Below, piece by piece: positions 52,093 through 57,660 of a stretch of DNA of 59,169 nucleotides. This DNA comes from Oehlia diaphana (lineage: Eukaryota > Glomeromycota > Glomeromycetes > Glomerales > Glomeraceae): positions 27,220 through 86,388 of the forward strand of contig QZLH01000289.1 of the NCBI GenBank assembly GCA_003833135.1. The letters are read 5' to 3'. The first letter of the stretch is position 1. Each line of letters opens with the position of its first letter. The translations under genes and the position numbers were made by a program. A model generated the notes under the pieces. That model saw nothing but the letters and a program-made list of their open reading frames with translations, was not told the DNA's origin and made no database searches.

Positions 52093-55000
52093 ATGCTTGA
52101 TTTCTTTACAATTCTAACGAAAGGTGGAATTGTTCTTTGGTCTAAATCTTTTACTCGTATTACTTCGTCCCCGGTTAATTCTTTAATTGGAGATGTATTA
52201 ATTGAAGAAAGGGCTGGAGAAAATAGCTATACTAAAGATTCTTATAGCTTAAAATGGACATTCGCAAATGAACTAGATCTTATTTTTGTGGTAAATGTCT
52301 AATAAAGTGAGTTGACTTAGTGAGTTTGTCAACTACGGCTCCTTAGTGTTTTTATTATATATATATTTATATATATATTGATACTTAAATTTATTATAAC
52401 GAATATTTATTTAACTAGGCTGCTTATCAAAAAATTCTTCAACTTGCATATATTGAAGAACTTCTTGCTACTGTCAAGAAATTCTTTTGTGATAAATTTG
52501 CCAATCTTATTAAAGACTCTGGTAAACTTCACAAATTCGATTTTGATGAGGATTTTGACGCAATATTAAATAAAATCGAAGAAAAGGATTCCAAGGTTTA
52601 AAATATTCTTTAATATTGTTAAATTCTAAAATGTGGATAATTATTAATCTAATTATTTAGTTTATTATTTTTTTAGAGTCATGAGAAGTTATCTAAACCA
52701 CGACCATTTGAAAAAACTAAAAAATTTAAAGAAACTGCAGAAGGATCGAAAAAACTTAGTTAGTAAATTTAAAATAATATTATCTTATCGGTTTATTTTT
52801 TTAAGGGATAAATTTTTATGATAAAAATAATCTTCTTTATTCAGGCGTGAGTGACATATCAAAACCTCCTACGAACCCAATTATCAGTGAAGATGAAATT
52901 GCTCGTAATATTGAAGAACTTCATCGACATAAAGGAAAGCGTGGACGTGGTGGACGAAAACAGTCTGGAACTGGTAGACCTAATGTTTCATCAGAGTAAG
53001 TATAAGAGCAAAAACGGATTTATTTTAAAAAAGCTTATTTTGATTTATAATTGTTTATTATATAATAAAGCGAAAAGAAGCAAGCTAGAAAGAAAACAAT
53101 GCGTGTATGGGATGATAAAGTGTCAAAAACAGAAATGGAAAGTTTGGATTATAGTGGAGATAAGGGTGATAGTGATAAATCGTCATCAGTAGATCCACAA
53201 AATTTGGTTGACCAAAATCAATTGGGTCAGTTTCAGGATGGGTATTATGAAGTACAAGATATAGGTCAAGATGACGACGAGGATGAATTTGAAGAGGATG
53301 ATTATGATGAAACAAACGACACTTCAGTCGAAAATAATAGCGGATCTAGCATATTGTCATTTTTTAAAAATATTACCGGACAGAAAGAAATTACAGAACA
53401 GGATCTTGTTCCAGTATTAGCGAAAATGAAGGAACATTTAATTAAAAAAAATGTTGCAGCTGATATTGCAGCTCATTTATGTGATTCCGTTGCAAGAAAT
53501 CTTGTAGGACAAAAGACCGGAAGTTTTAAGAGTACGTGATTAGTATGTTTATGTTTTGAATAAATTTTATTAAGTTTCTTCATTAAATTAATCAAAATCA
53601 ACTCAAAAAAGGCATTCAGTCAACTGTGAAACAATCCATGGAGATGTCATTGAAACGTATACTCACACCAAAGACATCAGTTGATTTGCTGCGTGATATT
53701 GCGCAAGCTCAGTCCAATTCACGTCCTTATTCGATTTGCTTTATTGGAGTAAACGGTGGGTTAAATTTGTAAGATAAATAATTAAAATAATGATATGCTC
53801 ATACACTTATAATTTATATAGGTGTTGGTAAATGTTTTGCAAAGGGAACCAAAATTTTAATGTATGATGGTACACAACAAAATGTCGAAGAGCTCAATGT
53901 GGGAAATCAAATTATGGGAGATGATGATAATCCGAGAACTATTCAGTCTACTACGAAAGGTGAAGGCATAATGTACCGTATTATCCCGAATGATAAGGGT
54001 CCAGCAAAATTTTTCGAATGTAACGATCAACATATTCTTGTACTTAAATTTGCTGCTGAACCATACATGCGAAGTGAAGAAATTCCCATCATAAATCGTA
54101 GTCCAAGGATTCGCCTCTTTTGGTATGAATATGACGCACAGAATAATATGATCGTTAAAAAGAATGATTCTTTCTATTACGGTCCTGGCGAAGATTATCC
54201 TAAAAAAGAGGTAGCCAAGAGAGCAGCGATACGAGAAATGGCGAGAAGACCCAATCTTGTATCATCAGATTTCATTTGGGAGATACCAATTAAAGATTTC
54301 TTGACTGCGTCGGATGAAGTACAACGAAGTTGTCTTATGTTTAAGCCAAATCAAGTTATTTTTAAATCGGTACAAGGAAGATTTCGCGTTATTTTAAGCA
54401 AAATTCTTGGAGTCAACCCTACTAATTCTCAAATTTCGGCTGCTTCATGGCTTGTTGGTGCTTGGATCGGTGGTGGAATTGTAAAATCACCTATTATTTA
54501 TGTTAATGAAAATGAAAAGGAGATTTTAAGAGCTATAGAGCAATACAGTGAAATGTTGAATTGGAGATATATGAAAGAATTACATAAAGCTAAATTAGAT
54601 GATTCAGAATGGAAAATTTCATTTATGAGCGATTATGATATTGAAAACGGGTTCTATGTCCTTCTTCAAACGTTGGATATTTTGGACACTAAAAAAGTGC
54701 CACCAGTTATTATGACTGATGAACTTGATCAGGTTTGATTAATTTTGCTTTGATGTAATAATTAATTCGTTCAAGAGAAAAATTTGTGAATTAACTTTTT
54801 TTTTAATTCGAATAGGTTCGCTTGCCTCTACTCGCTGGAATTTTAGACATTAATAGCCATTTGCTAGAAGAGAACAGAATTTACAGATATGTTTACCGGT
54901 CTCTTCACGAGCGATGTGAACAAATCTGTAATCTGGCAAATTTATCAGGGTTTTATTCTACAAACATAGTTGCAAACATGAAAGAGTGTTCAGATAATAT

Positions 55001-56130
55001 AACAACCCCATCTTGTACGATTATCAGTGGCAATAAGTTAGAAAAACTTCCTTTAGTTGTCTCACGTAAGAAAGTATTCAGAAATCGTGATCATCGCAAA
55101 TTTAATCGCGATATGGTATGGGGATTTAAAGTAGAAAAAGTTGGCCTTGGGTCATATTATGGGTTCAAGGTTGATAAAAACGAGCGTATTTTACTAGCAG
55201 ATTTGACAGTGAGTCATAATGTGAGTCTTATTTAATCTATCTATTTACTTATTTTATTTTTTTTTAGAAAAGCAAATGCTTTTTTTTTTTGATTAATTAT
55301 TAATTAATTATATATATCCTCTCTTATTAGTCCACAAATTTATCAAAGACTTGTTTTTGGTTATTACAAAACGGATTAAAGGTCCTTATTGCAGCATGTG
55401 ATACTTTTAGATCAGGTGCCGTAGAACAATTAAGAGTACATGTTAGGAATTTGAATGCTTTAGGTCAAAATTCAAATGTTGAATTATATGAACGTGGATA
55501 TGGAAAAGATGCTGCTGGGATAGCAAAGGATGCTATTAATTACGGTATGTATAAAATTGACTGCGGTGGAGACTTGTTGTTGACATATTTTTACATTTTT
55601 AGCCAAAATAAACAAATTTGATGTTGTATTGATCGATACGGCGGGACGTATGCAGGACAACGAACCATTAATGCGAGCGTTAGCTAAGGTATGATACTGA
55701 TCGTATATATTTTACGCGATCTTTTTGAACTAATTTAATTTACACTATTAGTTGGTTTCGGTAAATAATCCCGACAAGATTATATTCGTCGGTGAAGCAT
55801 TAGTTGGCAATGAAGCCGTTGATCAACTCACGAAATTTAATCAAGCTTTGAAAGATTTTTCAGGGTTACAAGATCCAAGACATATAGATGGAATGATTTT
55901 GACGAAATTTGATACAGTTGATGATAAGGTTTGGCGGAAATGATATTAAAGACTATCATATGGTAATCAAACACCAATCTAATATTTTTTATTTGGAACA
56001 GGTTGGGGCAGCCTTATCAATGACTTATACAACCGGACAACCGATTTTATTCGTTGGAACCGGTCAAACGTATACAGACTTAAAGAACATGAGAGTTGGA
56101 CATATTATTCACTCTCTTCTTAAAGAATGA
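52093..56130 (+). CDS. SRP101: SRP receptor alpha subunit with in-frame intein
   Basis: Twelve exons: 52093-52290, 52419-52595, 52677-52758, 52845-52995, 53071-53531, 53612-53755, 53822-54732, 54816-55220, 55331-55544, 55603-55688, 55752-55928 and 56002-56130. Phases agree and give a 1044-residue precursor. Removing the 435-residue intein leaves 609, near the usual ~600-640. The SRX domain opens [16 protein letters not shown]; a charged linker follows, then the NG domain: [27 protein letters not shown] / STNLSK (P-loop, split by the intein after Lys408), [64 protein letters not shown] and [11 protein letters not shown]. It is the GTPase of the ER membrane SRP receptor that takes ribosome-nascent chain complexes from SRP. 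An upstream in-frame TTG is not needed. Confidence 0.95.
53833..55220 (+). mobile_element. Intein (435 aa) in SRP-receptor P-loop
   Basis: Starts at Cys (TGT 53833) with block [14 protein letters not shown]. Block B is [12 protein letters not shown] with its His at intein residue 67 (the usual Thr three places before is Asn). Dodecapeptide endonuclease motifs are [10 protein letters not shown] (206-215) and [10 protein letters not shown] (305-314). Block F is [15 protein letters not shown] and block G is [10 protein letters not shown], ending at Asn 435. The next extein residue is Ser (55331). This is a class 1 Hint intein with all main splicing residues. Both LAGLIDADG motifs lack the catalytic Asp (Gly and Asn instead), so homing activity is probably lost. 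A spliceosomal intron (54733-54815) interrupts it; another (55221-55330) sits exactly between Asn and the +1 Ser. Confidence 0.93.
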
Positions 56131-57179
56131 AATTTGAGGCTCACAAGTCAGTCTGATTTAATGATGAACGTGGTGAACGCTTTGAACATTTAATATTTAA
56201 TCAAAAATCAAATTATTATTAGTAAGAAATTTTTTTTAATTTAATTTTTATTTATTTAAAAATTTGGGGAACTGAGAAAATCAATAATTATTTTATTTTA
56301 TTTTATATGTTTTTATTAATTGATCATTATTAATTTAACATCATTTCTGATCAAAATCAATGGTTTAATGATAGAGAATACATGTCAGAGAGAATACGCG
56401 TGATAGAGTGAACACTTGTGATAGAAGAATATGTATAGTAATGAGAATACGAATGTAGAGAATGTAGTACGTGTATAGAGAATACTTGCTGAATAAAAAA
56501 ACATAAAAAAAGAACTATAATAATAAATAAAAATCAAAAATCAAAATCAAAATCAATCAGATCAAATCTAATAATCATTTCTCATTATTCAAGTTATTAG
56601 TAATTGAGGCCTTGAAACGTGTATTTTTTTAATTTAGTTTAGTTGTCTTTCCGCCGTCATAAAGAAAGCACTTTGAATCTTCAATAATTCAGAATTTCAT
56701 ATACTAGAAACTTAAGTTAAATTCATTGCTATTTGAATATTTATATACAACCTGAATTTGTAACAATAATGAATAAAATATATGTTTATTAAATAACAAT
56801 TCATTTACAAATATAATTTAGTGGATTCTATATTAAAAAATAATAATATAACATGAAATAAATAAAAAATAAACAAACTAGTTCGTTTTCTGGTAATGGT
56901 AATTTGACCCTGTATGAACCCTCCTATATGAAACACAATATATGCGGATCAAGAAGGCAATATGTTAGTTATTGTGTAAAATAAATAAAATAAACAGACC
57001 ACCTTCATAGAAGGCGGTGGCACTTAAGTTAACTTTATCATCATATTCCTCTCATCGTGAGACGTGCTAATTGGTAATACCTCTGCAAAGCTTCTATACC
57101 TCCAGAAAGGGATATAGAGTATAAAATGATCTGCTTACAGTAAGATATTGTAGAAATGTCTCCATCGCCATTATACAGT
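56131..57179. other. Intergenic, downstream of SRP receptor
   Basis: 3' region followed by short repeats built on agagaatac / gatagag (56370-56490). No gene. Confidence 0.5.
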
Positions 57180-57660
57180 ACAAAGCTGTATCGTAATTTC
57201 TGATATCGATTTAAAAGACCGAACTATAATTTCTGGTAACGGTCCTGTCCCGCGCAGTTGACACAACGTACATCCTTTTAAATTTCCGCGCCGAACTGTA
57301 GGATTAGGCCAGACCCCATAATTTCTGGAAGCGGATTGGGCACAGCGTATATCATTTTAAATCTCCGCGCATATGATTGAAAGTAGATAGGCATAATATT
57401 TCATAATGACTCTTTCCGATAATGGTTACCGTAATTTCTGACTACGGATTAGGTCTGAACTTGTAATATCTTTTCTCTTTACTTTTACATTTTTTTTTTT
57501 TTTTTGGTTTTTTTTCATTTCACCTTTATAAAACCACTTTACAAAAGTTTCCTACAGGACCGAATTACCGTAATTTCTGGTAACGGTCTTGTTTCACTTT
57601 AAATTTCTGCGCGTGTGATTGAAAGTAAATAGGCGTGATATTTCATAATGGTTATATCTG
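57180..57660. repeat. Imperfect repeat cluster around ATTTCTGGTAACGG
   Basis: Phrases (c)cgtaatttct(g)gtaacggt, tttaaatttccgcgc and gattgaaagta(g/a)ataggc(a/g)t(a/g)atatttcataatg recur two to five times in the same orientation. The units differ by insertions, including a poly-T tract at about 57490. Confidence 0.65.

Follow-up and report, generated by a model that had tools for sequence, protein, structure and literature searches.

The SRP receptor gene and the segment within it

The stretch of DNA analysed here, which we call the window, comprises 59,169 nucleotides (nt) of contig QZLH01000289.1 (C289; positions 27,220 to 86,388, forward strand) of Rhizophagus diaphanus, a member of the Glomeraceae that is entered taxonomically as Oehlia diaphana. 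The assembly that holds it (GCA_003833135.1) has 108.8 Mb in 1672 contigs. At 52093-56130 the window carries a gene for SRPRA, the signal recognition particle (SRP) receptor alpha, and the nucleotide-binding loop (P-loop) encoded by this gene is interrupted by a segment of 435 amino acids (aa) that is very probably an intein. The features of the locus are the following.

52093..56130, + strand: SRPRA gene (gene model), 12 exons, encoding a 1044-aa precursor with a 609-aa extein
53746..53832, + strand: part of the P-loop preceding the intein, GVNGVGK (from the sequence), divided by a 66-nt intron at 53756-53821
53833..55220, + strand: coding segment of the predicted intein, 435 aa and 50.3 kDa, with one intron inside it (profile, PDB and fold matches)
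53833..53871, + strand: putative intein block A, including the nucleophile Cys1 (sequence and alignment)
54022..54033, + strand: putative intein block B, N64-D-Q-H67 (sequence comparison)
54448..54477, + strand: first LAGLIDADG-type motif, compared with YLLGLWIGDG of PI-SceI; catalytic Asp replaced by Gly (54472-54474)
54733..54815, + strand: intron within the intein segment, 83 nt (gene model)
54831..54857, + strand: second LAGLIDADG-type motif, LAGILDINS, compared with LAGLIDSDG of PI-SceI; catalytic Asp replaced by Asn (54852-54854)
55215..55220, + strand: penultimate His (H434) and terminal Asn (N435) of the predicted intein (from the sequence)
55221..55330, + strand: spliceosomal intron at the junction of intein and C-extein, 110 nt, AAT|gtgagt..tag|TCC (gene model)
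55331..56130, + strand: C-extein, from the +1 Ser of the P-loop (STNLSK) through the stop (gene model)

The gene has 11 GT..AG introns, and its 1044-aa translation contains no inner stop and is identical at every residue to the NCBI protein of R. diaphanus (P0001), which bears out the continuous frame across introns proposed in an earlier, sequence-only reading of this DNA. Because the joined exteins match the Pfam families SRP-alpha_N (PF04086, 1.1e-47), SRP54_N (PF02881, 7.7e-14) and the SRP54 GTPase (PF00448, 1.8e-50) in a search made with a provisional 583-aa join, and thus combine an SRX domain with N and G domains of the SRP54 type, the gene is identified by its domain content as encoding SRP receptor alpha.

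A class 1 intein in the P-loop

The segment enters between the Lys and the Ser of the P-loop, at GVNGVGK^STNLSK, and all the residues of class 1 protein splicing are present (C1, H67, H434, N435 and the +1 Ser). A search against Hint and intein profiles, which the sequence-only reading had suggested as a check, returned the Pfam family Hom_end_hint (PF05203) over intein residues 1-434 (E = 9.9e-22), and PI-SceI was matched in the PDB over residues 1-435 (E = 2.9e-17). These end-to-end matches rule out a chance reading frame, and the predicted fold matches both PI-SceI and a Prp8 intein. Compared with NCBIfam, P0001 revealed little more about the intein, giving only a weak match (0.0026, far below the cut-off) of its first residues to the model of an intein-containing protein.

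We conclude with high confidence that the segment is a class 1 intein of the PI-SceI type, whose self-excision is predicted to join GVNGVGK to STNLSK. This agrees with the earlier claim of an intein that leaves the G1 motif of SRPRA (GVGK^S) incomplete before its removal; block A, the block-B His, the penultimate His, the terminal Asn and the +1 Ser were likewise correctly named. The coordinates and the length of 435 residues given for the intein proved exact, but the 83-nt intron inside them had been given no place.

Additional evidence comes from relatives. An intein search of ~5.8 billion proteins listed 38, among which SRPRA with the intein is represented by five entries from R. diaphanus, R. 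irregularis (two entries), R. clarus and Funneliformis caledonium. Cys1, block-B Asn64..His67, His434, Asn435 and the +1 Ser are kept in the SRPRA inteins of the latter three species. An extein search gave 6756 matches, the best 120 of which were taken into the comparison; listed among these are 10 models from other Glomeromycotina species without a Hint domain, and GVNGVGKSTNLSK is unbroken in seven of them. In the other three (P0042, P0045 and P0050) the loop is not cleanly visible, and they were left out of the count of clean empty sites. The comparison of orthologues, also suggested by the sequence-only reading, thus finds the intein in four species of Glomeraceae and an uninterrupted loop in 7 of 10 other Glomeromycotina models; the insert is in frame and missing from orthologues that show the joined extein, as in a class 1 intein. 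As far as the listed proteins reach, the SRPRA insert appears confined to Glomeraceae.

A degenerate homing endonuclease

The intein probably retains the capacity to splice. It has probably lost the capacity to move, because both catalytic Asp residues of its endonuclease are gone. They are absent from both motifs in all four SRPRA inteins compared, and two environmental relatives (P0006 and P0007) retain both.

A full-length intein of 435 aa has persisted although the four SRPRA copies compared have lost the Asp residues, which may mean that the extra domain still has some use, and a regulatory role of inteins is a theme of those parts of the survey of eukaryotic inteins that are covered here (PMC5784728). 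The SRPRA intein might accordingly be domesticated, with its splicing regulated by conditions such as redox state or temperature and gating the supply of SRP receptor. However, an imprecise deletion would be harmful and the former endonuclease domain may help the intein to fold, which may together account for its retention as well, and it is the part resembling a homing endonuclease that is least conserved (61% identity between R. diaphanus and F. caledonium). We consider conditional regulation, which the sequence-only reading had also raised, improbable.

Removal from protein or from mRNA

Several observations weigh against an intein that leaves the protein by splicing. The structure model of the intein is of moderate confidence (mean predicted local distance difference test, pLDDT, 64.7; predicted template modelling score, pTM, 0.44). 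Between R. diaphanus and F. caledonium the intein is 69% identical and changes faster than the G domain (95%; N domain, 94%), at about the rate of the SRX and linker part (75%); within the intein, the endonuclease-like part changes fastest, followed by its linker (69%), Hint-C (76%) and Hint-N (83%). Additionally, an SRPRA model of R. irregularis DAOM 197198w (P0039, 570 aa) is annotated with the intein skipped in frame and reads GVNDLTSTNLSK. Its splice path can be reproduced in the window, from a donor after 53755 through an 8-nt microexon at 55201-55208 to 55331, and the frame stays open, so that the segment could be removed from the mRNA to give an in-frame transcript without the intein.

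The product of such a path, however, has no P-loop Lys, and normal GTP binding is not expected of it. Nor could GVGKST be restored by an intron beginning right after GGTAAA, where the sequence continues with TGTTTT; the donor closest to that point (53828) falls within those codons. Moreover, removal from the mRNA alone would give four species no reason to maintain Cys1, the His, the Asn and the Hint core. P0039 is most likely a product of gene prediction, and we regard removal from the mRNA as very unlikely.

Other copies of the gene

Further SRPRA copies with pieces of the intein lie on four contigs, C1490 (L009), C994 (L011), C334 (L012) and C1131 (L013), and C99 (L022) carries a 5' part of SRPRA with nothing beyond exon 6. 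Copies of this gene evidently do die in the genome, and it could be proposed that the intein no longer splices, that the window copy is itself dying and that another gene provides SRPRA. But these five are the broken ones: in an exon-by-exon comparison all of them have stops within single exons, the C1490 copy gave no match to the N-extein or the last exons, and stretches of the intein are missing from the C334 and C1131 copies. The window copy, in contrast, is open over 1044 codons, shares 95% identity in the G domain with the Funneliformis receptor and keeps its splicing residues, and its decay strikes us as extremely unlikely. The similarity of the C1490 copy also reaches into the downstream flank of the gene (window 56127-57489).

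No second intact SRPRA and no intein-free SRPRA was found in the assembly by a search that scores best candidates only, a result that is strong without being absolute. Because no other intact SRPRA was found, we infer that working receptor must be made from the window copy and that the intein in it must be able to splice. Since the intein is, in addition, kept in four species, targeting to the endoplasmic reticulum (ER) would depend on protein splicing, in line with the earlier claim to that effect.

Insertion site and related inteins

For the insertion site we compared 68 proteins listed by two intein searches, the 38 mentioned above and 30 new ones from the second search, with the five SRPRA entries included. 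The site reads GK^[ST] in 47 of the 68, G^[CST]GK in 8 and otherwise in 5, and is unreadable in 8; their hosts include helicases, AAA and ABC ATPases, UPF1, eIF5B and thymidine kinase. The SRPRA insertion within Walker A, at GVGK^S, makes this a P-loop intein of the commonest kind among them. In bacteria and archaea Lys^Thr is a common site, termed the 'classic' P-loop insertion in the parts of that account covered here (PMC5050341). P-loop Lys^Ser/Thr is thus already known as an intein site, and what is new, within the searches made, is SRPRA as host. One environmental CDC48-like protein (P0157) has two related inteins, one in each of its P-loops.

In an intein tree of 29 entries, with a root placed for drawing only, the SRPRA inteins are nearest to the intein of an ABC-F type ATPase of Paraglomus occultum (P0160; support 99/98), an entry on a long branch, and then to helicase inteins; a group of 14 entries (98/89) takes in the SRPRA, P0160, helicase and eIF5B inteins. 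Like the SRPRA intein, P0160 has a K^S junction, at GRNGIGK^STLL. It differs in its host and its long branch, and by eye it lacks only the first of the two LAGLIDADG Asp residues. The covered parts of the eukaryotic survey do not name ABC-F as a nuclear intein host (PMC5784728).

The same genome has an eIF5B intein (C192, L010 3450-2293, - strand), which resembles that of SRPRA in its P-loop position (GHVDTGK^T), in falling in the same group of 14, in its degenerate LAGLIDADG motifs and in an intron exactly at its C-terminal junction. It has a different host GTPase and is 386 aa long, with an identity of 33-43% by stretch, and it is not the nearest in the tree. As a direct donor it is ruled out, because the tree places the Paraglomus ABC-F intein (the long-branch entry) nearer.

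The yeast VMA1 intein (PI-SceI) shares with the SRPRA intein the Hom_end_hint family, a full-length match, the predicted fold and a conserved site in an essential enzyme. Its insertion context is CGK, and it keeps both catalytic Asp residues where the SRPRA intein has neither. The VMA1 intein is reported, in the part of the source covered, to lie between Gly and Cys (PMC2814812), whereas the SRPRA intein lies at GK^S. Prokaryotic and phage P-loop inteins such as TerL1-a have bacterial or phage hosts; that of SRPRA is in a fungal nuclear gene with introns, and has a +1 Ser.

A PF05203 profile scan of the R. diaphanus genome gave matches at C192, C289 and, below the cut-off, C334; the same kind of scan with PF14890 gave no match there. 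As to a possible viral origin, a scan of IMG/VR with a five-row intein alignment gave 96 encoding stretches, from which 80 loci were kept, with a best-segment identity of 24-54%. His-Asn codons followed by an intron donor pattern occur twice in these 80 loci, both times outside the intein match.

An intron at the intein boundary

The SRPRA junction intron starts right after the terminal Asn codon and ends right before the +1 Ser codon. The chance of an intron at one given position of SRPRA is ~0.35% (11 introns over 3134 inter-base positions), and the eIF5B gene of the same genome has its intron likewise at the C-terminal intein junction (AAT|gtaagt..tag|ACC). The broken C1490, C994 and C1131 copies retain a changed version of the junction intron between CATAAT and TCCACAAAT, and the same stretch of the C334 copy is too altered to read. 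By score against the eIF5B junction intron, the SRPRA junction intron ranks at the top of the 11 introns, but 142 of 2000 shuffles reach its score, and the two introns show no significant likeness that would indicate homology. The sequence-only reading had noticed neither the degenerate state of the endonuclease nor the junction intron, and it had missed the eIF5B relative and the broken copies as well.

Two environmental UPF1 proteins have inteins at GPPGTGK^. They are closely related (364 of 376 aligned N-extein residues identical), yet P0155 continues as HN-TVTSAT, whereas in P0156 the HN runs on into VSIAYW.. and the protein ends 24 residues past HN. We infer that P0156 has an intron exactly after the terminal Asn, as an unspliced GT intron would give the protein read.

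A junction intron shared by SRPRA, eIF5B and presumably UPF1 hints at a composite element. Under this proposal, an intein and an abutting 3' intron would form one mobile element, inserting as a unit between the codons for Lys and Ser/Thr of Walker A in eukaryotic P-loop genes that are not related to one another (SRPRA, eIF5B and UPF1), and its left part would leave by protein splicing and its right part by the spliceosome. Because the right part would leave at the RNA level, the 3' DNA junction of such an element would not need to be exact. A connection between homing elements and the spliceosome would not be without precedent, since homing endonucleases are reported within mirusvirus spliceosomal introns, in the part of that report covered (PMC12768974). 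Alternatively, introns that already lay at the boundary of the Lys|Ser/Thr codons may have served as landing sites for inteins, and we put the composite element forward tentatively, as a possibility that is on balance doubtful.

Discussion

The features of the locus suggest how the receptor may be made. The spliceosome would remove 11 introns, including the intron within the intein and the junction intron that directly abuts its 3' end, and the 1044-aa precursor would be translated. Cys1 would then attack the Lys-Cys bond, the N-extein would pass to the +1 Ser, and cyclization of the terminal Asn would release the 609-aa receptor, which would acquire its GTP-binding loop through protein splicing alone. 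Homing into the codons of Walker A probably brought the intein into SRPRA, in a common ancestor of the genera Rhizophagus and Funneliformis. The endonuclease was then lost, and the intein has since probably been inherited along with the gene, as nothing short of a precise removal would give back an intact loop.

The commonest nuclear intein hosts named in the covered parts of the eukaryotic survey are Prp8, VMA1, RNA polymerases, ThrRS, GLT, CHS and eIF5B, the last in Chytridiomycota and Glomeromycota (PMC5784728). Those parts credit R. irregularis with two inteins, without naming their hosts. The survey's table adds up to 184 nuclear inteins, whereas its totals (257 less 71) imply 186, and a supplementary SRPRA entry is possible. 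No report of an intein in the SRP receptor was found in the literature searched by title, abstract or passage, which covers few subscription papers, and this accords with the sequence-only reading, which was aware of none.

The junction intron is the aspect most worth following. An intron shared at the exact 3' end of the intein in unrelated genes raises the question of how nuclear inteins enter new sites, and the lineage to which the SRPRA intein belongs has reached one and the same position of Walker A in several unrelated nucleoside triphosphatases. With SRPRA, the few known nuclear intein hosts gain another, in plant-symbiotic fungi. In co-translational ER targeting, SRP receptor alpha acts as the docking GTPase, and in two arbuscular mycorrhizal genera the translated protein would have no active-site loop until the intein is removed. 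Thus, the whole targeting pathway of these fungi would depend on protein splicing.
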